A stretch of DNA of 64,000 nt from Hydrogenovibrio halophilus DSM 15072 (GTDB taxonomy: Bacteria; Pseudomonadota; Gammaproteobacteria; Thiomicrospirales; Thiomicrospiraceae), in NCBI RefSeq assembly GCF_000384235.1, contig NZ_KB913033.1, positions 1,557,164 through 1,621,163 of the forward strand, written 5' to 3'. Within the stretch, counting starts at the first letter, position 1, and the number at the start of each line of letters is the position of its first letter. Position numbers and translations under genes: made by a program. The notes under the pieces were generated by a model. The model did no database searches and was not told the origin of the DNA. It worked only from the letters and a program-made list of their open reading frames with translations. Below are positions 26,911-40,004 of the stretch, piece after piece.

Positions 26911-27016
26911 GGTTTTCCCTGTTTCAGATCAAGTTTTGAGATGAGTTTACGGAATTTTACAGGTAGAATGACAAAAATCGATTAAATCGTGATTGACACG
27001 TATATCAGGATGGGCA

Positions 27017-28771
27017 ATGTATTTATCGCATTTTGGCTTGCACAAATGGCCTTTTAAGTTAACGCCGGATTTGAGTTTCTTTTTCCGTCAGGCCTCTCGT
27101 GAGGCGGTGGTGGAAGCGGTGCAATACGCCATTGCCCGCGGCGATGCCGTGGTCAAGGTTTCCGGTGCCGTGGGCGTGGGCAAAACCATGCTGTTGCGTC
27201 TGCTGACTCAGCGTTTGTCGGGCGATTACCAGATTGTCTATCTGTCGGCACCGAACCTGAGCCCCATCGATATTTTGCGGGTGATCTGTGCGGAACTTTC
27301 CGTGAATCTGATGGGCCAGGAAAACAAGGCCGACCTGTTGAGCCGGATTCAGAAAGCTCTGATTGAACGCTATCAGGACGGTCAGCGCGTGGTGATGTTG
27401 GTGGACGAAGCTCAGGCGCTGACTCCGGATGCCCTGGAAGAAATCCGCCTGTTGGGCAATCTGGAAACCGAATGGGACAAGTTGCTGCAAGTGGTGCTCT
27501 TCGGGCAGCCAGAGCTGGATAAAACACTGGAAGACCCTCGCATCCGGCCGCTTAAGGACCGATTGGCCTGCAACGTGACCTTGTCACCATTTACCCCCAA
27601 AGAAGTCAAAGAGTATCTGAATTACCGGATGCGCATTGCCGGGTATCTGGAGACGGATTTTTTCAGTGACCAGGCCGCAAGGAAAATTCACCGGGTTACG
27701 GGGGGGTTGCCCCGGTCGATTAATATTCTTGCAGACAAACTGTTGATGGCAGCGAGCGCCAATGGTGATAAGCGTCTGAAAAACAAACATTTCCGTCAGG
27801 CGGGAGCGCCGGTCAAACAGGGCGCAAAAGTCCTGGCGATCAGTTTGCTGGCCGGGCTGGGGGTGATGGCTTCTGCCTATTTTGTGACCACCGTTCCGGT
27901 GGCCGACTTACTGTACGGACAACAGGAGGAGGCCCCAGAGAAGGTTGCGGAAAGACCTTCTGAGATCACGGACACAGCGTCACCAGCCCACACACCGTCG
28001 TCGGTTTCAGACAAACCGGAAACGACCGGATCGCCCGTTTCTTCCCCCGCATCCACAGACAGAACCGAAACCGATGTGGCTGGCACAGGTGTGCCATCCC
28101 GTGGTGAAGAGCCGTCAGGCAATAAAGAGACGGAGGTGGCCGATGCCGGGAGTCGAGTCACTAACGCAACAGAATCCCCGGTTTCAGGGGTAGAGCCTGA
28201 ACCGGAACTTCAGACTGAGGCGGAAGCCGAACTTGGGGCTGAAGCTGAAACGCCAAAACCGGCCGCCGAAAGGCAGGCGCGTGCCACAGAACGAACCGGT
28301 TCAGACACAGAAAAATCATCGGACTCCGATGCTTCAGGCGCTCCAGAGCCGTCCCTGTCGCCCAGCAATATGGGCGAAAACTACCAGGCCTGGTCAAAAA
28401 CACTGGGCATCGAATCGTCAAAATTGCTGACCCTGTTGACGTTGCATGAGCGATTGCGCAATCACATTTCAATCGCGTCGGCTCAGACCCCGTTGATTTT
28501 GATTGCACCTGCGCCAGTGGCCGATTTTCCGGGGGTTTATGCGCGCATGATGGACCGCCTGAGCTGGGAGAACCGGGAGCATGTGTATGCTCTGATGAAA
28601 ACGGACGACACGGATGGGACCGATGTGACCTACCAGTTGGTTTATGACCCCCGCACGAGCGGGAAGGCATCACTTCAACGCAAAGCCGCTCAGATAAAAG
28701 CGTTGAGCAATGCCCCTCAAGCGCAAACCGTTACGGTGCAAAGCTTGCGTGCTATAATCTCAGAAAAATAA
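27017..28771 (+). CDS. mshM: MshM/ExeA-type AAA ATPase with membrane anchor
   Basis: First gene of the MSHA-like cluster, 584 residues. The AAA domain has Walker A GAVGVGKTMLL (about 52-62) and Walker B VVMLVDEAQ (about 125-133). One membrane segment follows at about 271-294. A Pro/Glu/Thr/Ser-rich linker of about 150 residues leads to a globular C-terminal domain from about 450. ExeA-family ATPases help place or assemble secretins through the cell wall. ATG 27017 has AGGA about 6 bases before it. The periplasmic linker and C-terminal domain are longer than in plain MshM. Carries palindrome copy 6 at the start of its C-terminal domain. Confidence 0.82.
   Translation: MYLSHFGLHKWPFKLTPDLSFFFRQASREAVVEAVQYAIARGDAVVKVSGAVGVGKTMLLRLLTQRLSGDYQIVYLSAPNLSPIDILRVICAELSVNLMGQENKADLLSRIQKALIERYQDGQRVVMLVDEAQALTPDALEEIRLLGNLETEWDKLLQVVLFGQPELDKTLEDPRIRPLKDRLACNVTLSPFTPKEVKEYLNYRMRIAGYLETDFFSDQAARKIHRVTGGLPRSINILADKLLMAASANGDKRLKNKHFRQAGAPVKQGAKVLAISLLAGLGVMASAYFVTTVPVADLLYGQQEEAPEKVAERPSEITDTASPAHTPSSVSDKPETTGSPVSSPASTDRTETDVAGTGVPSRGEEPSGNKETEVADAGSRVTNATESPVSGVEPEPELQTEAEAELGAEAETPKPAAERQARATERTGSDTEKSSDSDASGAPEPSLSPSNMGENYQAWSKTLGIESSKLLTLLTLHERLRNHISIASAQTPLILIAPAPVADFPGVYARMMDRLSWENREHVYALMKTDDTDGTDVTYQLVYDPRTSGKASLQRKAAQIKALSNAPQAQTVTVQSLRAIISEK
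28383..28394. repeat. ACCAGGCCTGGT palindrome, copy 6 (inside mshM)
   Basis: Exact core followed by CAAAAA. Read in frame as NYQAWSK. Confidence 0.95.
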
Positions 28772-28966
28772 CATCTGCAGTCATACAAAACGGACTCGGG
28801 TAATGGCAGAGCGTGTCAAATATGGCTCTTCTGCCTGGCTTGAATGTTGCTTGAATCCATCGACATAAAGTCAGCGCCGGCTGGTTTTTGGACTGCACAC
28901 AGCACTCTGTTTCAATGAGTTCTTCGTTTCGTGCAAAGGACTCTCAATCAATAAAAGACGCATTTT

Positions 28967-30700
28967 ATGTTTCAACGCATGTTTCCGGCACTGGTGATCA
29001 GTGTTTTGTTAGGCTTTCAGGTTGGCTGTCAGAGCACAGCCGAGCGACCGAGTGACTCAGAAAAAGCCGAGCGTTTTCAGCCCAGTGGCCATTTGGAAAA
29101 AGCGCCGAAGTTGCCTGAAGCACCGTCTGCTCCGATCCCGTCCCTCTCCGATTTTGACCCCGTGAATCCGACCCCGGAAGCATTGGCCGTGAGCGATCGC
29201 TACAGTGTGTCGGCACTGAATGTGCCCGTTGACGAGCTTCTATTACAACTGGCGGAAGACGCAGGCAAAGAGTTTGACATTCACGAGGCCGTCGCGGGCA
29301 AGGTCAGTATCAATGCGATTGAGCAGCCACTGGATCGCATTTTGAAGCGGATCGTCTCACAGGTGGATGCGGTATATACCCTGCAGAACAACGCCATTGT
29401 GATTCGGCCCGACAAGCCCTACTGGCACAGTTATGATGTGGATTATGTCAATATCGTCAAAAACATTCGGGATACCACCGTCATGAATATGTCGGTGGGG
29501 AATGTGGCCGACAATGGCGGCGGTGGTGAGCAGAGCGGCAACAGCGAATTTCGTATGGAAACCTCGGCCAATCATGGCTTTTGGGAAAGCCTGGAGGCCA
29601 GTGTCCGTGCGATGGTGGCGCCGGAAGAGGCGGTGAGGCAAGCTCCTTCCCCGCCGTCGGATACCGATTCGGATGCCGGTCGGGAAAGCACTGGATCAAA
29701 CGCTCAATCAGACAACTCTACTCAGGCATCCGCCCGGCAGCGGGTGGTGGTACACAAGGAAAGCGGCTTGATTAGTGCCTACGCAACGAACAAATCGCAT
29801 CAGCAGGTGGCGGGGTTCCTGACCAACCTAGCGGAACGCACCAATCGTCAGGTATTGATTGAGGCCACGGTGGTTGAGGTTGAACTGAGCGATGAGTATC
29901 AGGCCGGGGTGGATTGGTCCGTGTTCAATGAGTCGTCCAATACCTCCTCTCTTGTCGGCAATTCGATTGTGGGCAATAACAATAGCGTGGATCCCAATCT
30001 GAATCTGAATTTCATGCGTTTCAACTGGGATTTTGATTTGGGAGTCCGGTTTCTGCAACGTTTTGGCGACGCCAAAGTACTCTCCAGCCCCAAAATCATG
30101 GCCATGAACAATCAAACCGCCTTGCTGAAAGTGGTGAAAAACGAGGTGTATTTCACCCTGGAAGTCAATCGCGAGGCGGCCACCACCAACAGTGCCGGGG
30201 TCACCACCTTTGAAACCAACCTGCACAGTGTGCCCGTGGGCTTTATGATGCACGTCACCCCGTTTGTGAATGAAGACCGGGTGACATTGAATGTGCGTCC
30301 AACGCTGACCAGCATCATTGACTTCAAGGATGATCCCAATCCCGAACTGGCCAATGCCGGGGTGGAAAGCAAAGTACCGATTATCCGAGAACGGGAAATG
30401 GATTCGGTTTTGCGTTTGTTGAATCAGCAGACAGCGGTGATCGGCGGTTTGATTCAGGACTCCATGAACGATGTCGATTCGGGGGTGCCGGGCCTGAAGG
30501 ATTTGCCGTTTATCGGCCCGGCGTTTGATTATCAGGAAAAAGTGCAAAAGAAAACCGAGCTGATCATTTTTATCCGCCCCACCATTGTCAAAAACCCGGA
30601 CATTGAAAACGGCGATTTGCAGGCTTTTCGTCCAATGATGCGCACGAATTCCGTTCGTGAAGCCAAACCCGAGGCTGCGGACAAGGAGTCAAGCCAATGA
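28967..30700 (+). CDS. mshL: MshL-type outer-membrane secretin
   Basis: A 577-residue secretin. The N-terminus looks like a lipoprotein signal (hydrophobic segment then FQVGC, Cys 21), although the -3 position is not a classical lipobox residue. An STN-like N0 domain (YSVSALNVPVDELLLQLAED) follows, then a secretin N domain split by a Ser/Gly-rich insertion (about 180-250). The C-terminal secretin domain (about 290-555) has VLIEATVVEVELSDEYQAGV and the signature VPGLKDLPFIGPAF preceded by VIGGLIQD. It forms the outer-membrane exit ring. It is followed by mshN with a 4-base ATGA overlap. Confidence 0.9.
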   Translation: MFQRMFPALVISVLLGFQVGCQSTAERPSDSEKAERFQPSGHLEKAPKLPEAPSAPIPSLSDFDPVNPTPEALAVSDRYSVSALNVPVDELLLQLAEDAGKEFDIHEAVAGKVSINAIEQPLDRILKRIVSQVDAVYTLQNNAIVIRPDKPYWHSYDVDYVNIVKNIRDTTVMNMSVGNVADNGGGGEQSGNSEFRMETSANHGFWESLEASVRAMVAPEEAVRQAPSPPSDTDSDAGRESTGSNAQSDNSTQASARQRVVVHKESGLISAYATNKSHQQVAGFLTNLAERTNRQVLIEATVVEVELSDEYQAGVDWSVFNESSNTSSLVGNSIVGNNNSVDPNLNLNFMRFNWDFDLGVRFLQRFGDAKVLSSPKIMAMNNQTALLKVVKNEVYFTLEVNREAATTNSAGVTTFETNLHSVPVGFMMHVTPFVNEDRVTLNVRPTLTSIIDFKDDPNPELANAGVESKVPIIREREMDSVLRLLNQQTAVIGGLIQDSMNDVDSGVPGLKDLPFIGPAFDYQEKVQKKTELIIFIRPTIVKNPDIENGDLQAFRPMMRTNSVREAKPEAADKESSQ

Positions 30701-32856
30701 GTGTGCTGTTGGAAGCGCTCAAAAAAGCCGCCAACGAAAAAAAGCGAACCGATCCTGCCGTTTCGCAACATGAGCCTGAGGAAGCCCATACGTCCCGTCC
30801 GAGCCGTGAGGCCATGAATCAGACTCTTGCCAGGGATCGCAAACCGCCCAGAGTCCAGCCATCTTCCCGAAACCCAACTGAGAAACCATCAAACGAAGGG
30901 ACCGTCAGTCAAAGCGAGGTTTCCGCCTCCGCATTGGACTCCGCTCCGGCTGAGTTGCTGGACGAAACCCCAGCGGAAGCCACGTCTGACCCTGAGCTAG
31001 CTTCTCCCCCAGAGCCTGAATCAGAATCTGGACCAGAACCGGCCGTTTCCCCGGGCGCCACTGAAGGAGCGTTGACCCTGCGTACCGAAGACGCAGCCCC
31101 GGAATCCCCATTGTCGGAGCCGTCCGGCGCAGACGAACCGGACGTGTCACAAGATTCACATCAACAGGCGGCTCTTGCCGCGACGGAAGACGAAGCGTCT
31201 GTGAAAAGCGCGCCTGCTGCGTCTGAAGAAACCGGTTTTACATTACGGGAGCAGAATGATTCGGCCTCACCGGGCGATGGGAGCTCGCAGGCGCTTGACC
31301 TGGAAACCCGGCTGGCCCTGGCCAGTGATGATGCGTCTTCCTTTGAAGCGGAGAGAGGCGCGTTTTCCGAGACAGGCGAGTCTGAATCTGAACCAGATTC
31401 CGGATCAGATCAGACACCGGAACCGGAGTCGTCTTCTGCGTTTTCCGACGAAACGGTGGAAGAAACCGGGGCCCAGAGGTCCGACAACCCACTTCCGGCG
31501 CAAGGGTCGGAAACCACGGAGGTTGACGAAGCGGACAAAGTCGACATGGCGACGGCGGATTCTTCGCAATCACGTGCGTCTGAGCCGGTTGAGAAAGCCG
31601 CGGATTCCGATGCCCAGAATGAGTGGAGCCTGTCCAAGATTCCCGGTTACGCCAATAACGAGGCGCCCAGAAAACCGGTCTCCGAGAAAAAAAGTCGGCA
31701 ATGGCTGCAGGTGATGCAATCGGGGCAGCGCCAGCCGAGCCGACGTTATCGCTGGGTTTTGGGTCTGTTGATCGCCCTGCTGGTCGCCACAGGGTTGTTG
31801 GTTTTTGGCTTTCTCTATTTTTATCAATCTCAGTCGCAACTGGATCAGTCGCTGGCGCGTTACCAATTGCCACTGCCAGAAAATTCCAATCAAGCCGATC
31901 AACCGACTTCCGTCACTCTGCCGGAGGAGGTAGTGGATGCTTCACCGGACTCGGCGACCGATTCTGCAGAGCAAGCCAGGGAGGCGCGCCAGGAACCGGC
32001 GGCTGAGCCATCGACAGAACGATTGTCAGAGCGAACATCAGAGGCTTCGGAAGCAAACGGTGTCAGCGAAACAGCGGAGCAGAAGCAGACATCCGCTCCG
32101 ACGGCGACAGAGGCCAAACCCTCGGCATCGCAAGAGATGGATGCCCCTTCAGAATCGACCGCTGAACCGCCTTCTCAAGCACCTGACTCGTCTTCCGAGC
32201 GCCCGTCCCGCACCGAGGAGACTCAAGATGCCGCCCGGCCGTCTCAACGCTTAAGCATTCGTTCGGACGGTGCGTCACAAACCCTGAAATCGGCCTATGC
32301 GGCCTATCAGCGAGGGCAGTGGCAAGAGGCCAAATCGCATTATCAGACGTTGTTGCGTCAAGAGCCGGAAAATCTGGCGGCGATGATGGGAATCGCTGCC
32401 GTTCATGTGAAAGAGCAGGCCTACTCCAAAGCCATGCAAAGCTATCAGAAAATTCTGCGGTTGCACCCTGGTAATGAAAACGCGCTGGCCGCACAAGCCG
32501 CTTTGGCAGGGGTGTTTGCTCAGAACCCGGACAATATCCGGCAACTGAAAAACTGGGCACAAAAATGGCCGGACCAGCCTCAGCTTCAGGCCGCTCTGGG
32601 ACGATACTATGCGCAGAATCGGGACTGGCTTCAGGCCCAATCGCATTTTTTCAAGGCGTTTGAGTTGGTGCCGAAAAAAGCCGATTATGCGCATAATCTG
32701 GCGGTAAGCCTGGATCAGCTGGGGAAATACCGCCTCGCCAGAGACTATTACCGCAAGGCGTTGACGCTTTCCGAATCGGCGCTTTCAGCCCCCCAGCAGG
32801 CAAGCATTCGGGCACGGATCGACGTTCTGAATCAATTCTTGTCAGAGGAGTCCTGA
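30697..32856 (+). CDS. mshN: MshN-like TPR protein with acidic low-complexity N-terminus
   Basis: A 719-residue bitopic membrane protein. It starts with SVLLEALKKAANEKKRTD, a motif shared by MshN and GspB-type partners of secretion ATPases. About 300 residues of Glu/Ser/Pro/Ala-rich sequence follow, then one membrane helix (about 351-374), a second disordered stretch, and TPR-like repeats (about 530-700: AYQRGQWQEAKSHYQTLL, AYSKAMQSYQKILRLHPGNENAL). The disordered region is much longer than expected for MshN. Its start overlaps the mshL stop, and mshE begins directly after its stop. Confidence 0.78.
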   Translation: MSVLLEALKKAANEKKRTDPAVSQHEPEEAHTSRPSREAMNQTLARDRKPPRVQPSSRNPTEKPSNEGTVSQSEVSASALDSAPAELLDETPAEATSDPELASPPEPESESGPEPAVSPGATEGALTLRTEDAAPESPLSEPSGADEPDVSQDSHQQAALAATEDEASVKSAPAASEETGFTLREQNDSASPGDGSSQALDLETRLALASDDASSFEAERGAFSETGESESEPDSGSDQTPEPESSSAFSDETVEETGAQRSDNPLPAQGSETTEVDEADKVDMATADSSQSRASEPVEKAADSDAQNEWSLSKIPGYANNEAPRKPVSEKKSRQWLQVMQSGQRQPSRRYRWVLGLLIALLVATGLLVFGFLYFYQSQSQLDQSLARYQLPLPENSNQADQPTSVTLPEEVVDASPDSATDSAEQAREARQEPAAEPSTERLSERTSEASEANGVSETAEQKQTSAPTATEAKPSASQEMDAPSESTAEPPSQAPDSSSERPSRTEETQDAARPSQRLSIRSDGASQTLKSAYAAYQRGQWQEAKSHYQTLLRQEPENLAAMMGIAAVHVKEQAYSKAMQSYQKILRLHPGNENALAAQAALAGVFAQNPDNIRQLKNWAQKWPDQPQLQAALGRYYAQNRDWLQAQSHFFKAFELVPKKADYAHNLAVSLDQLGKYRLARDYYRKALTLSESALSAPQQASIRARIDVLNQFLSEES

Positions 32857-34542
32857 GTGGCACAACCGGTTCGACTTGGCGACAAACTGGTCAATGAAGG
32901 CTACATCACGCCCGATCAACTGCGCATTGCGCTGACCGAACAGAAACTCTCCGGCAAAAAGCTGGGCGAGGTGCTGGTGCGTCTGGGTTTCCTGTCGGAA
33001 AATGCCTCGCGGGAAATGGTGGGCGATGCGGTCGGCTATACCTCCATGAGTCTGGAAGGCGTGGTCCCCGATTCGGAAGCCCTGAATCTGCTGACAGAGC
33101 CTTTTGCCCGCGCCAACATGGTCATGCCAGTCAGTTTGAGCGGCAAACGTCTGCAGGTGGCCATGGCCAATCCGGACGACATTCTGCTGCTCGACAAGAT
33201 CAAACGCCACATCCGCGAAGAAGAGGTTCAACTGGAACCGGTTCTGGTTGTGGAAAACGAAATTCAGAGCGCCATTGATCACTTTTACGGTTACGAATTG
33301 TCCATCGACGGCATCATTCGTGAGCTGGAGACCGGTCAGGCTGATTTGACTTCGCTGGCCGAGGACGATGAATACTCTCAGCCCATGGTGCGCCTGATCG
33401 ACAACATTCTGACCGATGCGGTCAAGAAAGAGGCTTCGGACATTCACTTTGAACCCGAAGCGTTTTTTATTCGCATCCGTTACCGCCTGGACGGGGTATT
33501 GCAACAGGTTCGCCTGTTACACAAAAGTTTCTGGTCGGCCATGGTGGTGCGACTGAAGGTCATGGCCGATCTGGATCTGACCGATCAGCGCTTGCCTCAG
33601 GATGGGCACATGGATCTGGTGGTGCACGGTCGTCAGATCGACTTTCGTGTCTCTTCCCTGCCGGGCACGCACGGCGAAAACTTTGTGTTGCGGATTCTGG
33701 ATCGCCACCGTGGCATCATCCCTCTGGACGAGCTGGGGCTGGATCCGGACAGTTATCAGGAACTCAGAATCATGATGTCGCGCCCAACCGGTATTCTGCT
33801 GGTGACGGGGCCGACCGGTTCCGGGAAAACCACCACCCTGTATTCGGTGTTGCGGGAAATGGATCAGGAAGGGGTCAACATTATGACGCTGGAAGACCCG
33901 GTGGAATACCCGATGCAGCGGATTCGCCAGACCCAGGTCAATGAAGAAATCGGCATGACGTTCGCCGCCGGGATCCGTGCGCTGATGCGACAGGACCCTG
34001 ACATCATTCTGGTAGGTGAGATCCGTGACGGTGAAACCGCCGAAATGGCCTTGCGTGCTTCCATGACCGGGCATCAGGTGTACGCCACCTTGCACACCAA
34101 CTCGGCCATTGGCGCGATTCCGCGTCTTCTGGACATTGGCATGTCCCGTTCCATTCTTTCGGGCAATCTGATCGGGGTCGTGGCGCAACGTCTGGCCAGA
34201 CGTCTGTGCTCTGAATGCAAAGAAGCCTATGAGCCGGAACCCTTTGAAAAAGAGGTGCTGGGATTCAAGCCCGAGGAGGAAATTATCCAGTATCGTGCAG
34301 TCGGTTGCGAAGCCTGCAATCATACCGGTTATCGAGGACGACTGGCGATTCTGGAAACCTTGCGATTCACCGATGAAATGGATGCGCTGCTGCTGGAGGG
34401 CGGATCGCAATATCAGATATTGCAGAAGGCGGTGGAGCAAGGGTTCTCGCCGATGCTGAACAACGCATTGAAGTGGGTGCGTCAGGGCGAAACCACGCTG
34501 GATGAAATCAGCCGGATTGTCGATCTGACGGAGCTGGTGTAG
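32857..34542 (+). CDS. mshE: MshE-type assembly ATPase (GspE/PilB family)
   Basis: Hexameric ATPase that powers pilin polymerisation, 561 residues. The N-terminal domain LGDKLVNEGYITPDQLRIALTEQK matches the MshEN-type domain that binds cyclic-di-GMP in MshE. It has Walker A GPTGSGKTTTL (about 317-327), an Asp box LEDPVEYPM, Walker B IILVGEIRDGETAEMAL, and a His box GHQVYATLHTNSA. A zinc tetra-Cys motif CSECKE (about 450) and CEACNHTGYRGR (about 484) is present. It starts with GTG 32857, directly after the mshN TGA, with GAGGAG upstream. Confidence 0.93.
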   Translation: MAQPVRLGDKLVNEGYITPDQLRIALTEQKLSGKKLGEVLVRLGFLSENASREMVGDAVGYTSMSLEGVVPDSEALNLLTEPFARANMVMPVSLSGKRLQVAMANPDDILLLDKIKRHIREEEVQLEPVLVVENEIQSAIDHFYGYELSIDGIIRELETGQADLTSLAEDDEYSQPMVRLIDNILTDAVKKEASDIHFEPEAFFIRIRYRLDGVLQQVRLLHKSFWSAMVVRLKVMADLDLTDQRLPQDGHMDLVVHGRQIDFRVSSLPGTHGENFVLRILDRHRGIIPLDELGLDPDSYQELRIMMSRPTGILLVTGPTGSGKTTTLYSVLREMDQEGVNIMTLEDPVEYPMQRIRQTQVNEEIGMTFAAGIRALMRQDPDIILVGEIRDGETAEMALRASMTGHQVYATLHTNSAIGAIPRLLDIGMSRSILSGNLIGVVAQRLARRLCSECKEAYEPEPFEKEVLGFKPEEEIIQYRAVGCEACNHTGYRGRLAILETLRFTDEMDALLLEGGSQYQILQKAVEQGFSPMLNNALKWVRQGETTLDEISRIVDLTELV

Positions 34543-34547
34543 GCCTT

Positions 34548-35753
34548 ATGCAGACTTATCGTTTTCAGGGGATTAACCGCTTTGGCAAACGCGTTCGTGG
34601 CGAAATGCTGGCCAGTAATGAAAAAGATCTGGAGCGACGTCTTCGTGATACACACATCGAGTTACTGACGGCCAAGGTCAAAACCAACGCTTGGTGGCAG
34701 TCACTGAGCCGCAGCCGTGTCACCCGCCGCGATGTGATTGTGATGACCAATCAGTTTCGTCAACTGCTCAAAGCCGGGGTGTCGCTGATGGAGATCATCG
34801 ATGACCTCAGGCGAACCTATGAAAATGACCAGGTACGCGAAATGCTGACCGTGATTTACGAATCCATGGAAGGGGGCGAGACCTTCTCCAGTGCATTGCG
34901 GCCTTATGAGAGCACATTCGGACGGGTGTATCTGAGTCTGGTGGCGGTGGGTGAGCGGACCGGCCAGCTGGAGAACGTGCTTGAAAAGTTGGAATCGGCC
35001 CTGCAGTGGGAAGAATCCCTGGCCTCAAAAGCCAAAAAAGTGATGATTTACCCGAGCATTGTGGGGTTGGTGGTGTTGTCTGTGGTGATGCTGATGATGC
35101 TGTTTGTGGTGCCGGAATTGTTGACCTTTATTCAGCAGATGGGGGGAGAACTCGGGTTTGCCACCGCGTCCCTGATTGCGACCTCGGAATTCATCCAAAA
35201 CAATATTTTGATTCTGATGGCGCTGCCGTTTGTGATCACCGCCTTGGTCAAGGCCTGGTTGAAGCGTTCGCAACAGTTTCGGCTCTGGTATGATCGCCAT
35301 CTGTTCAAACTGCCCTTGATTGGCGGGGTGTTGTATAAGATCAAAGTCGCACGCCTCGCGGGAACCCTGGCGGTCATGTACGCCTCGGGGGTGAATTTTC
35401 GTGACAGTCTGGCGTTGTCGGGCGAAGTCACCAGCAATGCTTACATGGAACAGACGGTGCGCAATGCCATTCGCCTGATTGAAGAAGGGGAAATGATTTA
35501 CCGGGCCTTTGAAGAATCGGACATTTTTCCGCCGATGGCGATTCGAATGGTTCGCATTGGCGAGCAAAGCGGTAATATGGACGATGCGTTGCATCACGTC
35601 AGCGAATATTATGACAACGCCGCCAAGGAAATGATTGAAAAAATCGAGCCGGCGGTCGAACCCATTCTGACTGTGGTGATGGCGGTGATCGTGGGCTGGG
35701 TGATGATGGCCGTGCTTGGACCGGTGTATGACACCATTTCTCAGGTGCAGTAG
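34548..35753 (+). CDS. mshG: MshG-type inner-membrane platform protein (GspF/PilC family)
   Basis: A 401-residue polytopic platform protein with two GspF domains (about 65-190 and 270-395). Each has the pattern of a helical bundle followed by membrane helices; MIYPSIVGLVVLSVVMLMMLFVVPEL is the first helix pair and AVMAVIVGWVMMAVLGPVYDTI the last. MTNQFRQLLKAGVSLMEI is typical of the first domain. It starts 5 bases after mshE. Its stop codon lies inside a 21-bp tandem duplication shared with the next gene. Confidence 0.92.
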   Translation: MQTYRFQGINRFGKRVRGEMLASNEKDLERRLRDTHIELLTAKVKTNAWWQSLSRSRVTRRDVIVMTNQFRQLLKAGVSLMEIIDDLRRTYENDQVREMLTVIYESMEGGETFSSALRPYESTFGRVYLSLVAVGERTGQLENVLEKLESALQWEESLASKAKKVMIYPSIVGLVVLSVVMLMMLFVVPELLTFIQQMGGELGFATASLIATSEFIQNNILILMALPFVITALVKAWLKRSQQFRLWYDRHLFKLPLIGGVLYKIKVARLAGTLAVMYASGVNFRDSLALSGEVTSNAYMEQTVRNAIRLIEEGEMIYRAFEESDIFPPMAIRMVRIGEQSGNMDDALHHVSEYYDNAAKEMIEKIEPAVEPILTVVMAVIVGWVMMAVLGPVYDTISQVQ

Positions 35754-35789
35754 GAGTCGGGATGGACGCAGTAGGAGTCGGGATGGACG
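35748..35789 (+). repeat. 21-bp perfect tandem duplication over a stop, RBS and start codon
   Basis: Two identical 21-bp units (35748-35768 and 35769-35789) each contain TAGGAG and GGATGGACG. The duplication gives the next gene two equally spaced AGGAG-ATG pairs (ATG 35762 and ATG 35783), adding seven in-frame codons. Confidence 0.95.
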
Positions 35790-37348
35790 CAGTTTTATAT
35801 CTCAGAGACAAAGCCATTACCGTGATCGAAACGACGGGCAAGCAGGGCTTTTTCGAGCAAAACATTGAGTGGGACGACACCGCTGCTCTGGATGAGGTAC
35901 TGAAGCGTCTTGCCGGTGCGTCTGAAGTGGCACTGGTCATCGACTTTATTGATGAAACCCTGCATTTCGAGTGGGTGCCCAAATTACTGCCCTGGGAAAA
36001 ACCGGGCTTGCAGAAACGTTTGACCGACAAGGCCAAGGGCGAAGGCGGTCTCTATGTGCATTTCAGCTGGTTGCCACTGACCCGAAAGACGGCGCAGGGA
36101 CTGACCCAGCAATTGACCATGGTGGCCAGCATTCTGCAGTCGCCCATGCTGGAAACCTTTTTCAAACAGTTGCATGCGGCGCATTTGCCGCTCACGCATG
36201 TTTACTCCTTTGCGTTTCTGATTGAGACCCTGTTTTTTCAGAGGCTGGCCCGTCGGTTGCGTTTGTCGCGCAAACAGACCAAACAGCCTTTTATGCTGGT
36301 GTTTCGGGAAACCGAACACCAGTTTCGTCAGATTTTTTTTCAGCACGGTCATTTGCGGATTGCCCGGCAGGTGGATCTGGATCCGGAGCTGGAAGAGGAT
36401 GCGATCAATCATGCCTTGATCGAGGAAACCCGGCGCGCGGTCAAATACGTTTACAATCAAAAACTGTTGGACCTCAACAGCGAAGTCGGGTTTGTGTATG
36501 TGAATGTGGCCCATCACGACGAAAGCGACATCGTGCAGCTTTACCAGGAAAATGTGGTCCAACGGAATTGGGATGCGTCCAAAACCTTTATGGTCGGGGG
36601 CGAGCTGGGGGAGTTGTTGAAGATTCCGACCAGACAAACCCAGGCCTCGACAGCCATTTTGGCTCTGTCACGTTTTATTGCTCAGGCCAAGCCGAAAACC
36701 TTTTATCAAAACCAGTACGTTCAGGCAGTGAAAGGGTATTGGCGGGGGCGCAAGGCCGCCTGGGCTCTGGGACTGATCCTTGCCATTGGTGGTCTGGTGC
36801 TGGGGCTGCAAGGGGCCATCGACGCTTGGCACCTAAACGCCCAAATCAAGGAAATGGCCCATCAGGAAACACGGTTGCAAGAGCAAAAGCAGACACTACA
36901 GTCGCGTCTGGACTTGCCTTATGACGCTCGTGACATTCAGACGACCGTCGAATTTGCCAAGGCGGTGGTCGGGCATCGGATGCAAGGCTCGTTTGAGCGT
37001 TTGTGGCAATCGTTGGGTCAGGTATTGAATCGGCATCGGCACATTGCGTTGCAGCGGCTGCGCTGGGATCAGGCTCTGCCGGTGAACCCCGATACACTCG
37101 AACTGACCATTGAGGGATGGGTTTACCCGTTTGCCCAGTCGTTTTCGCCGCCTACCGAATGGGTAAACGCGTTCACAGAAGATTTGGGCAAACGACCGGA
37201 GGTCAAAACGGTGACGCTGACTCAGCCGCCGTTGGCGGCTTCTCCGGAACAGGCTTTGAACTTGAATCAATCGGCTTTGCAAACTCAGGCGGCCCTGCCT
37301 TTTCAAATGCGAGTGGTGTTTGTTCTGACGCCTGAGGAGGGGACATGA
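35762..37348 (+). CDS. mshI: MshI-like protein (PilM/PilN or GspL architecture)
   Basis: A 528-residue protein with a cytoplasmic domain of about 325 residues, one membrane helix (about 331-352, AWALGLILAIGGLVLGL), a short coiled coil, and a periplasmic ferredoxin-like domain. In type IV pili this is PilM plus PilN; in type II secretion it is GspL. The match is by architecture and gene order, since sequence motifs are weak. Two starts, ATG 35762 and ATG 35783, are both usable because of the tandem duplication. Its stop overlaps the next start by ATGA. Confidence 0.7.
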   Translation: MDAVGVGMDAVLYLRDKAITVIETTGKQGFFEQNIEWDDTAALDEVLKRLAGASEVALVIDFIDETLHFEWVPKLLPWEKPGLQKRLTDKAKGEGGLYVHFSWLPLTRKTAQGLTQQLTMVASILQSPMLETFFKQLHAAHLPLTHVYSFAFLIETLFFQRLARRLRLSRKQTKQPFMLVFRETEHQFRQIFFQHGHLRIARQVDLDPELEEDAINHALIEETRRAVKYVYNQKLLDLNSEVGFVYVNVAHHDESDIVQLYQENVVQRNWDASKTFMVGGELGELLKIPTRQTQASTAILALSRFIAQAKPKTFYQNQYVQAVKGYWRGRKAAWALGLILAIGGLVLGLQGAIDAWHLNAQIKEMAHQETRLQEQKQTLQSRLDLPYDARDIQTTVEFAKAVVGHRMQGSFERLWQSLGQVLNRHRHIALQRLRWDQALPVNPDTLELTIEGWVYPFAQSFSPPTEWVNAFTEDLGKRPEVKTVTLTQPPLAASPEQALNLNQSALQTQAALPFQMRVVFVLTPEEGT

Positions 37349-38031
37349 AGCCATCGGTTTATCGGGGCCACTTGACCTCACAGGACCACAAAGCCTTCGC
37401 CAGACGGATGTTGTTGGTGCCGGGGCTGTTGCTGAGCGGGGTGCTGATACTGGTGCTGCTTGGCTGGCAAGCCGGTGGTGCCTGGTTGAGCGACGCTGAA
37501 CAGACGGTGAAGACTCAGGAGCGGCAACTGACGGACGTGTTGAAATCGGTGCGTTTTCTGCAGGAACAGCAGCGTTTGGTTCAGCGGTATGGCCCCGCTT
37601 ATCAGCAGTTGCTCAATGAGGGGCTGGTTCAGCGCCAGGACCGGGTGAATTGGACCGATGATCTGTTGCAGGTGCAAAAACGCTGGCAATTATCGCCTTT
37701 TGTGGTCCAGTATGAGCCGCGTCAGGCTCTGACAAAATCGTTGGCCGGGCCGTTTCCCTGGGAGAAGGATCTGTTTCGCTTTACCCGTGTGCACATTGAG
37801 GCTGGCGTGCACACTGAATCGGATTTGCAGGCCCTTTTTGATCAGGTGGCCAGCGCCTTGACCCCTTTGTTTCTGGTGGAAGGCTGCAACCTGTCTCAAC
37901 GGGTATCGAAAGTTCTGACACCGGAACAGCCGGTTCGCTTTTCTCCCAACCGATCGGCTCTGATTGCGCAATGCACGCTGTTGCTTTTTGAAGCGGAATT
38001 GCCGCCTTTTGAAACAGGAGCGCTCAAATGA
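37345..38031 (+). CDS. mshJ: MshJ/PilO/GspM-like inner-membrane protein
   Basis: A 228-residue bitopic protein: a short cytoplasmic start, one membrane helix (about 22-45), a coiled coil (SDAEQTVKTQERQLTDVLKSVRFLQEQQRLV) and a periplasmic domain. That layout is typical of PilO and GspM, which pair with PilN/GspL. Two Cys in the C-terminal part (EGCNLSQ and IAQCTLLL) could form a disulfide. It overlaps its neighbours by ATGA on both sides. The name rests on position and architecture. Confidence 0.65.
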   Translation: MKPSVYRGHLTSQDHKAFARRMLLVPGLLLSGVLILVLLGWQAGGAWLSDAEQTVKTQERQLTDVLKSVRFLQEQQRLVQRYGPAYQQLLNEGLVQRQDRVNWTDDLLQVQKRWQLSPFVVQYEPRQALTKSLAGPFPWEKDLFRFTRVHIEAGVHTESDLQALFDQVASALTPLFLVEGCNLSQRVSKVLTPEQPVRFSPNRSALIAQCTLLLFEAELPPFETGALK

Positions 38032-38567
38032 TTCGACGCTGGCTGGCAGGCTGCATTGGCGGGATAGGGCTGTGTGTGATCCAACCGGTTTGGGCCGAGG
38101 CCCCGCGTCTGTTTTTGTCGCCCGAGCAGCGCGACAGCATTGAGCGGGGGCGTCAGACGGTGGATACGACGCCGGAAGCCGCCTCAACAGAGACAACCGA
38201 TTCGGACGCCCCTTCGGCCCGGTCCAGGGCGGAGCCGGTGCGCATCAGCGCCATCATTATTACCCCGGATGGGCGTAAATGGGCACGTCGCAATGACACT
38301 TACCAACTGATGGATTCAAACGGTCAGTCAAAACGGCCCATGCAGGTAGAGCTGGCCCCGAATGTCCGTCTGAGAGTCGGCGAGGCTTATGACCCGGAAT
38401 CGGGCCAAGTGGTCCCCTTGCACCGTCTTGCAGAGGAGGCGGCACAGATGGAAGGCACAGCCACGACGGATGAGGTGGATTTAACCCGGCAGATTCAGAC
38501 CCAGCTTCCGGGGGCCAGCGATCTTTTGTTGCCAAAGGGCGCGCGAAAAACCGAGGAGACAGACTGA
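38028..38567 (+). CDS. mshK: MshK/PilP/GspB-like periplasmic protein
   Basis: A 179-residue exported protein with a signal peptide (MIRRWLAGCIGGIGLCVIQPVWA). It has a disordered Thr/Ser/Glu stretch (about 45-70), then a small domain around VRISAIIITPDGRKWARRNDTY. The pattern of an isoleucine-rich strand followed by a short turn and WA(R)xN is seen in MshK- and GspB-like proteins that contact the secretin. The C-terminus is acidic. This is a suggestion from order and layout. It is the last gene of the ATGA-linked chain; rmuC starts three bases after its stop codon. Confidence 0.55.
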   Translation: MIRRWLAGCIGGIGLCVIQPVWAEAPRLFLSPEQRDSIERGRQTVDTTPEAASTETTDSDAPSARSRAEPVRISAIIITPDGRKWARRNDTYQLMDSNGQSKRPMQVELAPNVRLRVGEAYDPESGQVVPLHRLAEEAAQMEGTATTDEVDLTRQIQTQLPGASDLLLPKGARKTEETD

Positions 38568-38570
38568 GCG

Positions 38571-40004
38571 ATGATGAGTGATTGGTGGCAGACACCGCTG
38601 GCGAGCGGTTGGGCCTTTCTGGCCCTGTTGGGGGTGCTTCTGGCGCTGGTTTGGGGTTGGCGTTTGCAGCAGCGATTGACCCGGGTATTGCAAAATCCAC
38701 CAGGCCTGGTGGATTTGCAGGCCGAAAACGCACGTTTGCAACAACAGCAGAGCGCCTGGCACCGACTGCAGGGGGAGCATGAGGCCCAGACTCGGCAGGT
38801 GGCACAGCTGGAAGCGGATTTGGCTCAGGCCCGTTCCGAATTGCACCGCATCACGGAGCAGTACCAGGCTGAGGCCACGCAAAAGGCCACACTTGAAACC
38901 AGAATGAAAAGCCAGGAGCAGGCCTACGAAGAAAAAATGGTTTTGCTGGAAGAAGCCAAACAGCGTATGACCGAGGCGTTTGAAGCCCTGTCGAACGACA
39001 TTCTCAAGCGAAAGCAATCCGAGCTGGAAGCACAAAGTCAGAAAAGTCTGCGCCATCTTATGGAGCCGATGCATGCTTCGATGGAGCAATTCAAGGCGCG
39101 CATGGAGACGGTGCACAAGGAAAACCTGGAAGGTCGGGCCTCACTCAAAACCCAGTTGGAGCAATTGCAGTCGCTGAACCAGCAGATCAGCGAGGAAGCC
39201 CACAATCTGACCCATGCGCTCAAGGGCGATCAGAAGCTTCAGGGCAATTGGGGCGAACAGATTCTCAAGCGCTTGCTTGAACGGAGTGGATTGCGCGAAG
39301 GCCAGGAATTTGAATCGGAAAAAAGCTTTACTCAGGAGGATGGCTCACGCCTGCGACCGGATGTGATCGTCAATCTGCCGGATCGCAAGCATGTGATCAT
39401 TGACGCCAAGGTGTCACTGCTGGAGTACGAAAAAGCCTTGAACGCGCCCACGCCCGCTGAAAGAGAACAGGCGATCAAGGCGCATCTGGGCAGTCTGAGA
39501 AAGCACATTCATGCCTTGTCGAAAAAACGCTATGACCACATTGAACGCTTGCACCCACCCGACTTTGTGCTGATGTTTGTGCCCATTGAAGGAGCGTACC
39601 TTCTGGCGGTTGAAAAGGATCCGGCGCTGTTTGAAGCCGCGTTTGAACAGAAAGTGGCCGTGGTCACCCCGACCACGCTCTTTACCACTTTGAAAACGAT
39701 CGAACAGTTGTGGCGATACGAGCGTCAGTCCGAACACACCATGAAGCTGATCAAGCGCGCGGCGGATGTGCACGACAAGTTTGTCGGGTTTGTGACCCAT
39801 TTTGAAAAAATCGGCAAGCAGCTGAATACGCTCAACAGCAGTTACGACACGGCCCGACGGCAGATGATGGCCGGACAGGGCAATCTGGTGCGTCAGGCAG
39901 AAATGCTCAAGGAACTGGCGGGCAAAACCCGCAAAGAAATGCCCGAACATTTGCTGGAGGAAGCGGAAGGCAGGGCTATATTAAATGAACCGAATCCTCG
40001 GTGA
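38571..40004 (+). CDS. rmuC: RmuC family DNA recombination protein
   Basis: A 477-residue protein with an N-terminal membrane helix (about 12-29), a long coiled coil (about 45-220) and a C-terminal PD-(D/E)xK-like nuclease-fold domain. The latter shows GNWGEQILKRLLERSGL, RLRPDVIVNLPDRKHVIIDAKVSL (Asp and Asp-Ala-Lys) and RHxxxL-type helices typical of RmuC. RmuC limits inversions between short inverted repeats; its molecular activity is unsettled. It starts three bases after mshK and may be read through from that cluster. Its last 29 bases overlap the end of a convergent gene. Palindrome copy 7 lies at the start of the coiled coil. Confidence 0.92.
   Translation: MMSDWWQTPLASGWAFLALLGVLLALVWGWRLQQRLTRVLQNPPGLVDLQAENARLQQQQSAWHRLQGEHEAQTRQVAQLEADLAQARSELHRITEQYQAEATQKATLETRMKSQEQAYEEKMVLLEEAKQRMTEAFEALSNDILKRKQSELEAQSQKSLRHLMEPMHASMEQFKARMETVHKENLEGRASLKTQLEQLQSLNQQISEEAHNLTHALKGDQKLQGNWGEQILKRLLERSGLREGQEFESEKSFTQEDGSRLRPDVIVNLPDRKHVIIDAKVSLLEYEKALNAPTPAEREQAIKAHLGSLRKHIHALSKKRYDHIERLHPPDFVLMFVPIEGAYLLAVEKDPALFEAAFEQKVAVVTPTTLFTTLKTIEQLWRYERQSEHTMKLIKRAADVHDKFVGFVTHFEKIGKQLNTLNSSYDTARRQMMAGQGNLVRQAEMLKELAGKTRKEMPEHLLEEAEGRAILNEPNPR
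38699..38710. repeat. ACCAGGCCTGGT palindrome, copy 7 (inside rmuC)
   Basis: Exact core; the perfect symmetry extends to 24 bp (38693-38716). It is the only intragenic copy read in another frame, as PPGLVD. Confidence 0.95.

Follow-up and report, generated by a model that had tools for sequence, protein, structure and literature searches.

A 64-kb stretch of the Hydrogenovibrio halophilus DSM 15072 genome (the window; bases 1557164-1621163 of its single contig, which is 2,356,686 bp long and has a completeness rating of 100%) carries, at window positions 27017-38567, eight genes resembling those of the mannose-sensitive haemagglutinin (MSHA) pilus. Their order is M-L-N-E-G-I-J-K and they run straight into rmuC, the reading frames lying where a first-pass annotation of this DNA had placed them. 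The absence of a prepilin gene from the window, which that annotation had also reported, was confirmed both by a scan of the 64 kb for the prepilin motif and by a PF07963 search of the genome, all seven matches of which lie at 136-147 kb of the contig. Very probably, the cluster encodes the envelope machine of a retractable, MSHA-like type IV pilus together with the motor that extends it, and the pilins of this pilus are encoded, unlinked, at 136-147 kb. The features of the cluster, together with the flanking gene, are the following:

27017-28771, plus strand: mshM-like gene, ExeA/MshM-type AAA ATPase of 584 aa with a long C-terminal extension; ATG start, alternative TTG at 26993
28967-30700, plus strand: mshL-like gene, outer-membrane secretin (PF00263, E 1.2e-38)
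30697-32856, plus strand: mshN-like gene, 719 aa, acidic low-complexity N-terminal part and C-terminal TPR repeats (TPR families above their cut-offs)
32857-34542, plus strand: mshE-like gene, assembly ATPase with an MshEN domain (T2SSE 422 bits, MshEN 68.7 bits)
34548-35753, plus strand: mshG-like gene, inner-membrane platform (two T2SSF domains)
35762-37348, plus strand: mshI-like gene; in a predicted model, actin-like PilM/GspL-type cytoplasmic domain, long helix and ferredoxin-like periplasmic domain
37345-38031, plus strand: mshJ-like gene, putatively in the PilO/GspM position (a homologue occupies this position in 15 of 17 machine stretches of the family)
38028-38567, plus strand: mshK-like gene, putatively in the PilP/GspB position (recognised by tblastn in 8 of the same 17)
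38571-40004, plus strand: rmuC, flanking gene outside the pilus set (PF02646, E 8.9e-99)

Pilus parts elsewhere in the genome

Searches of the genome detected a single type IV filament machine and a single prepilin set, their parts distributed over four places. Of the seven prepilin N-termini, one belongs to a shortened gene, and all lie within 136.0-146.7 kb; should the contig be circular, the shorter arc from there to the msh cluster measures approximately 0.9 Mb. The secretin search (PF00263) gave MshL as its single match genome-wide, and the two T2SSF domain matches both fall in the mshG frame. Three T2SSE ATPases were found, namely MshE and the products of two adjoining genes at 166.5-168.4 kb, which score 504.3 and 442.6 bits, over the PilT/PilU family cut-off of 319.1. 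The single PF01478 match, a prepilin peptidase at 2026652-2026978, is a stand-alone gene outside the msh cluster, and at 1750.5 kb there is a homologue of ComEC. No second secretin, platform or assembly ATPase was detected in the 2.36-Mb genome by the PF00263, T2SSF and T2SSE searches; likewise, a type II secretion system (T2SS) with its own platform and pseudopilin set was not encountered, MshG being the sole platform detected. The genome thus encodes every part expected of a retractable type IV pilus, from prepilins and peptidase through secretin, platform and extension ATPase to the retraction ATPase. The first-pass annotation had credited the cluster with everything from the secretin to the motor, which holds for the secretin, the platform and the assembly ATPase; the cluster is, however, not the whole machine, since the retraction ATPases and the peptidase are encoded elsewhere. 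Its suggestion that the pilins might be encoded elsewhere was borne out by the genome search it had proposed, with seven prepilin N-termini at 136-147 kb and the peptidase at 2027 kb.

The pilin locus (stretch L009) encodes prepilins of 283, 598, 454, 185, 197 and 191 aa, plus the shortened one. The 185-, 197- and 191-aa products are major-type pilins, and those of 283, 454 and 598 aa may be minor or tip pilins. Two further genes, of 312 and 207 aa, lack the Glu5 motif and match no family; their products are probably pilin-like proteins and may, in our own reading, be PilX/MshP/GspK-like. In the 598-aa pilin, the C-terminal half gave no adhesin domain, the searches returning one weak PDB match (E 0.0014) and, in Pfam, only N_methyl.

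The pilins were compared, after removal of the 26 N-terminal residues, with 63 prepilins linked to machines of the same M-L-N-E-G type (delimited below), 139 prepilins of other loci, and 47 T2SS-like prepilins of the family, where T2SS-like denotes a layout (platform followed by about four prepilins) and not the outcome of a family search. The 197-aa pilin matched 22 of the 63 linked prepilins (best E 4e-29) and 2 of the 139, one of the two being the same gene as a linked one, present in overlapping stretches. The 283- and 598-aa pilins each matched 39 linked and 5 other prepilins (best E with the linked ones 4e-11 and 1e-12, respectively), the 454-aa pilin 43 and 7 (1e-19), and the 185-aa pilin 26 and 3 (9e-13), while none of the six trimmed pilins matched any of the 47 T2SS-like prepilins at E up to 1. 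Judging from these alignments, the likeness between the distant and the linked pilins extends past the common N-terminus.

As regards the structure of the pilin locus, arrays of short repeats separate the three major-type pilin genes (L009:9349-15520, that is 141.3-147.5 kb), for example three copies of a 212-nt unit at 72% or above and eleven copies of a 33-nt unit at 70% or above. A 356-aa gene among the repeats has a weak likeness to REP-associated/Y1 transposases (NF047646, E 2.8e-9, under the cut-off), and repeats and transposase-like gene may together drive pilin duplication. A fourth major-type pilin (L009:11136-11280) ends after about 30 residues, where it meets an 89-nt repeat with three copies close to the transposase-like gene.

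Within the cluster, four-base ATGA overlaps join L to N, I to J and J to K, the three junctions at which the first-pass annotation had seen them. MshM matched AAA_22 in Pfam (E 3.8e-27) and scored 207.1 bits with TIGR03015, the XrtA/PEP-CTERM ATPase, under its cut-off of 324.5; by gene order, this product is taken to be MshM. Its C-terminal extension lies at 27800-28500. The part of MshN ahead of the TPR repeats (30800-32200) is, by eye, mostly acidic and of low complexity, and is overlapped by long out-of-frame open reading frames. With TIGR02519 (MshL), the secretin scored 248.3 bits as a protein and 250.5 on the genome, the cut-off being 250.2. MshI, MshJ and MshK gave no Pfam/NCBIfam family match at E 0.001. 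A predicted model of MshI (mean predicted local distance difference test score 65.9, six sequences in the alignment) has the architecture expected of MshI/GspL: residues 6-315 were best matched by PilM structures (Z 12.3, root-mean-square deviation 5.1, 273 aligned; Foldseek on the model, PilM E 6.8e-9), and residues 410-519 matched the periplasmic domain of XcpY (Z 9.6, deviation 2.7, 78 aligned). The cluster is preceded by ilvI-ilvH-ilvC, names read from the frames, and followed by rmuC.

Machine and pilins in related genomes

The organism is a member of the Hydrogenovibrio/Thiomicrospira group, the relatives named in an alignment of nine MshI proteins being Thiomicrospira sp. WB1, three Hydrogenovibrio genomes and a Piscirickettsiaceae metagenome-assembled genome. 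Judged from the gene maps, the separation of machine from pilins is common to the family, which was sampled with 20 machine stretches and 15 pilin stretches. Seventeen of the machine stretches have an MshE of at least 53% identity, and rmuC stands behind the machine in 14 of these and ilvC ahead of it in 10; the other three contain a different machine, with an MshE of 37-45%. By motif, no prepilin was found in any of the 17, of which 16 extend at least 9 kb past mshE, whereas the other three stretches hold 1, 5 and 1. The motif scan is conservative: of the seven PF07963 matches in L009 it caught six, and some homologues of the 454-aa pilin escaped it, such as that in L097. In the pilin stretches, homologues of the 283-aa, 454-aa and 312-aa products, as well as some major-type pilin, were each found in 14 of 15. 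In L090 and L096 (genomes G014 and G021), an L-E-G machine replaces the M-L-N-E-G cluster and forms a long branch in the MshE tree described below.

The following statements on the family all hold among the matches listed. Machine and pilins lie from about 144 kb to 1.3 Mb apart in the eight relatives with both loci on one contig. A T2SSF match was obtained in 36 of the 38 genomes searched; H. halophilus, G007 and G015 have a single platform each, of this machine type, while in six of ten genus relatives pilins follow a second platform, in the T2SS-like layout, and three others have a pair of T2SSF proteins of about 320 aa instead. The nearest relative, G005, has two platforms, so that one was probably lost recently in H. 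halophilus.

The arrangement was also compared outside the family, by an MshE search over 370 genomes of the class in which the M-L-N-E-G type of MshE was defined by an identity gap. At least 75 genomes have a match of 48% identity or more, a count that excludes G274, G347 and G287, whose partial matches reach 48-49% and span about residues 166-555, and the next full-length matches reach at most 43% (hand count, among the matches listed). Of the 71 M-L-N-E-G genomes outside the family, 45 were examined, 40 in newly fetched stretches (L182-L221) and five from the survey of MshL described below (L138, L150, L151, L169, L170); the remaining 26 were excluded, in part owing to an mshE too close to the end of its contig. 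At least 9 kb is available behind mshE in 39 of the 45 loci, and a same-strand prepilin is found there in 38 of the 39; that of L218 lies 10.9 kb from mshE and continues past the end of the stretch. A tree of 88 MshE rows was built by a quick method, with 63 M-L-N-E-G rows, 14 of the 41 available L-M-E-G-type rows (see below), 8 T2SS-like and 3 other rows, and no full-length Vibrio protein. On this tree, the split as against the linked state can be explained by one state change, or by two when the outgroup is included, because L091 does not resolve. Since the pilins stand downstream of G in most outgroup loci, the linked state looks ancestral.

Relation to Vibrio MSHA

In Vibrio cholerae, MSHA is encoded in one 16.7-kb region, with a machine operon mshI-mshF and an adjacent pilin operon mshB-mshQ, and it uses PilT, according to PMC4624765. 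The first-pass annotation, which had the Vibrio pilin genes following mshG, was therefore correct in that the pilins adjoin the machine genes, but these are two operons, the pilin genes forming the second. Its term MSHA-like is apt for the gene content; by sequence comparison, the machine is apparently not an orthologue of Vibrio MSHA, belonging to a separate clade and having a different gene order. The crystallised N-terminal domain of V. cholerae MshE (5htl) scored 114.3 and 102.6 bits against two MshE proteins of the L-M-E-G type, versus 57.6 bits against an MshE of a linked M-L-N-E-G locus and 56.2 bits against that of the window. Moreover, the 63 M-L-N-E-G rows of the MshE tree form one group (97% in the SH-like approximate likelihood ratio test), apart from the other 25 rows, among which long branches were flagged. 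Orthology to Vibrio-type MSHA was thus rejected on the scores of the MshE N-terminal domain and on this tree, to be read as one that includes no full-length Vibrio protein.

The L-M-E-G type comprises those 55 of 60 loci of the MshL survey that are not M-L-N-E-G; mshN is unrecognised in them, several have only L and M, and some are divergent. The survey took the over-cut-off MshL matches, excluding the lowest-ranked and the minus-strand ones less than 10 kb from a contig start, and 41 of the 55 loci gave an MshE-like match long enough for motif comparison. At least 18 genomes carry both types. In one of them, G090, the two machines stand in tandem on one contig (L148 and L150), with secretin genes about 13 kb apart and the M-L-N-E-G pilins between them.

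The MshEN domain of the window (32872-33030) retains an intact 24-residue half-motif I, while half-motif II is degenerate, with K35, S51, V55 and A58 in place of the Arg38, Leu54, Leu58 and Gln61 of V. cholerae MshE. The position of Gln61 is occupied by Gln in 38 of the 41 L-M-E-G-type rows versus 1 of the 63 M-L-N-E-G rows, a further five of the latter having a Gln within one column of it; the half-motif I glycine is retained in just 9 of the 41 L-M-E-G-type rows. The NCBIfam profile for the cyclic di-GMP (c-di-GMP) domain, NF053729, scores 66.9 bits on the window MshE, above its cut-off of 38 despite the degenerate half-motif II, so that the residue reading and the profile disagree.

Competing explanations and significance

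The first-pass annotation had also considered that the machine might have been repurposed, for example for secretion or attachment; on this reading, pilins would no longer be polymerised. The lack of a nearby pilin gene would fit this, and the acidic MshN and the extended MshM look unusual by eye. However, the genome has kept seven prepilin N-termini along with a peptidase and two PilT-family ATPases, a second secretin, platform or assembly ATPase was not detected, and in other genomes similar pilins stand linked to machines of this type. A repurposed secretion system was rejected on genome content, and repurposing in any form is extremely improbable. Hardly better placed is the idea that the pilins at 136-147 kb are remnants of a lost T2SS or type IVa pilus machine, leaving the msh cluster an orphan. 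It draws on the T2SS-like second platform and pilins of six of the ten genus relatives, which suggest that such a machine was probably lost in H. halophilus (among the matches listed); yet the six trimmed pilins match the linked M-L-N-E-G pilins and none of the 47 T2SS-like prepilins, and relatives that retain a T2SS-like locus also have the separate pilin locus (again among the matches listed).

An ordinary MSHA pilus, orthologous to that of V. cholerae and with unlinked 'loner' mshA genes, is a less remote alternative, albeit an unlikely one. MshL scores at the very cut-off of the MshL family, and the genes mandatory in the published MSH model, which permits a loner mshA (PMC6668835), agree with the content found here. 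Against it stand the 5htl scores, about half as high with the M-L-N-E-G as with the L-M-E-G-type proteins, the separate position of the 63 rows in the tree, the presence of both types in the same genomes, and the contrasting residues at the Gln61 position.

Several observations weigh against the reading of the cluster as a pilus machine served by distant pilins. No regulatory site common to the msh cluster and the pilin locus was found: when sigma-54-like sites were sought ahead of mshM, mshL and seven genes of the pilin locus, 61-200 of 200 shuffles did equally well. The 191-aa pilin gave the weakest resemblance (19 of 63 linked prepilins, best E 7e-8; 4 of 139 others). As the 17 family loci are related, they amount to about one event, not 17, and one of the 39 outside loci, L213 (G272), has no nearby prepilin, its mshE standing alone with no recognisable neighbours. 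In L091 (G015), one of the 17, mshM is directly preceded by a homologue of the 312-aa pilin-like gene, so the split is not total there. Furthermore, G014 and G021 carry a divergent L-E-G machine and a 185-aa-like pilin in the same stretch, and G021 holds homologues of the 312-, 283- and 454-aa products with no M-L-N-E-G machine in the fetched stretch, which means that the pilin locus is not strictly tied to this machine.

If the cluster does serve an MSHA-like retractable pilus, the stand-alone peptidase at 2027 kb would cleave the prepilins, MshE would drive MshG to polymerise the pilins, MshI-J-K with MshM and MshN would link the base to the MshL secretin, and the PilT/PilU pair at 166-168 kb would retract the fibre, the large 598- and 454-aa pilins possibly standing at its tip. 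Going by these genes, surface attachment is the likely role of the pilus; DNA uptake is perhaps a further one, given the ComEC homologue and the lack of a second type IV filament machine among those detected. A bolder proposal, which we consider possible but doubtful, is that the M-L-N-E-G systems are a separate filament type, distinct from MSHA and T2SS, whose one-sided MshEN answers c-di-GMP differently or not at all, that the pilin genes broke away in Hydrogenovibrio/Thiomicrospira, and that the filament is here a single all-purpose one, with three alternative major pilins for attachment, retraction and DNA uptake.

The published MSH model, as given in PMC6668835, has mshE, mshG, mshL, mshM and mshA as mandatory genes, with mshA allowed as a loner, so that unlinked pilins are already anticipated by it. 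The first four are present here, MshL at its cut-off and MshM named by order, as judged with Pfam/NCBIfam and not with the profiles of that work; the mshA candidates are the three unlinked major-type pilins, which resemble linked ones in the trimmed comparison, a different measure from its mshA profile. The same paper reports that MSH loci are without a peptidase, that type IVa pilus genes are usually multi-locus and, as tendencies and not as requirements of the model, that MSH is encoded almost exclusively in a single locus and that MSH genomes also hold a T2SS, a type IVa pilus or a Tad (tight adherence) system. In H. halophilus, the pilins lie about 0.9 Mb off, and one platform, one secretin and one assembly ATPase were detected; the family-wide split, together with a genome in which this is the only machine detected, runs counter to both tendencies as reported there.

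With V. cholerae MSHA (PMC4624765, PMC6668835), the system shares the secretin, the MshEN-type extension ATPase, the platform and, by name, the further Msh proteins, and it differs from it in the distant pilins, the order M-L-N-E-G-I-J-K and the degenerate half-motif II. It is like the linked M-L-N-E-G systems (45 loci of the class) in MshE clade, in gene order where this is recognisable and in its pilins, and unlike them in that a prepilin follows their machine, no more than about 11 kb from mshE, in 38 of the 39 with sufficient downstream sequence. The separate places of machine, pilins, PilT/PilU and peptidase recall type IVa pili with dispersed genes, as portrayed in PMC6668835, but the machine is MSH-like in content and no second one was detected in the genome. 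Secretin, ATPase, platform and a GspL-like protein are homologous to those of T2SS, from which the system is set apart by two PilT-family ATPases and by prepilins resembling the linked M-L-N-E-G pilins and not the T2SS-like ones of the family. No description of the M-L-N-E-G type was found in a search of PMC papers on MSHA-like systems and on Hydrogenovibrio/Thiomicrospira pili, and it is not claimed here to be undescribed.

What appeared to be a machine without pilins thus becomes a dispersed but complete pilus gene set. That the half-motif II Gln is missing almost throughout the clade, as read from the alignment, yields a direct prediction on c-di-GMP binding. Moreover, a genome with this as the sole machine detected offers a clean setting for finding out on which peptidase, retraction motor and pilins such a machine depends, and is equally suited to the question of whether one machine serves both attachment and DNA uptake.

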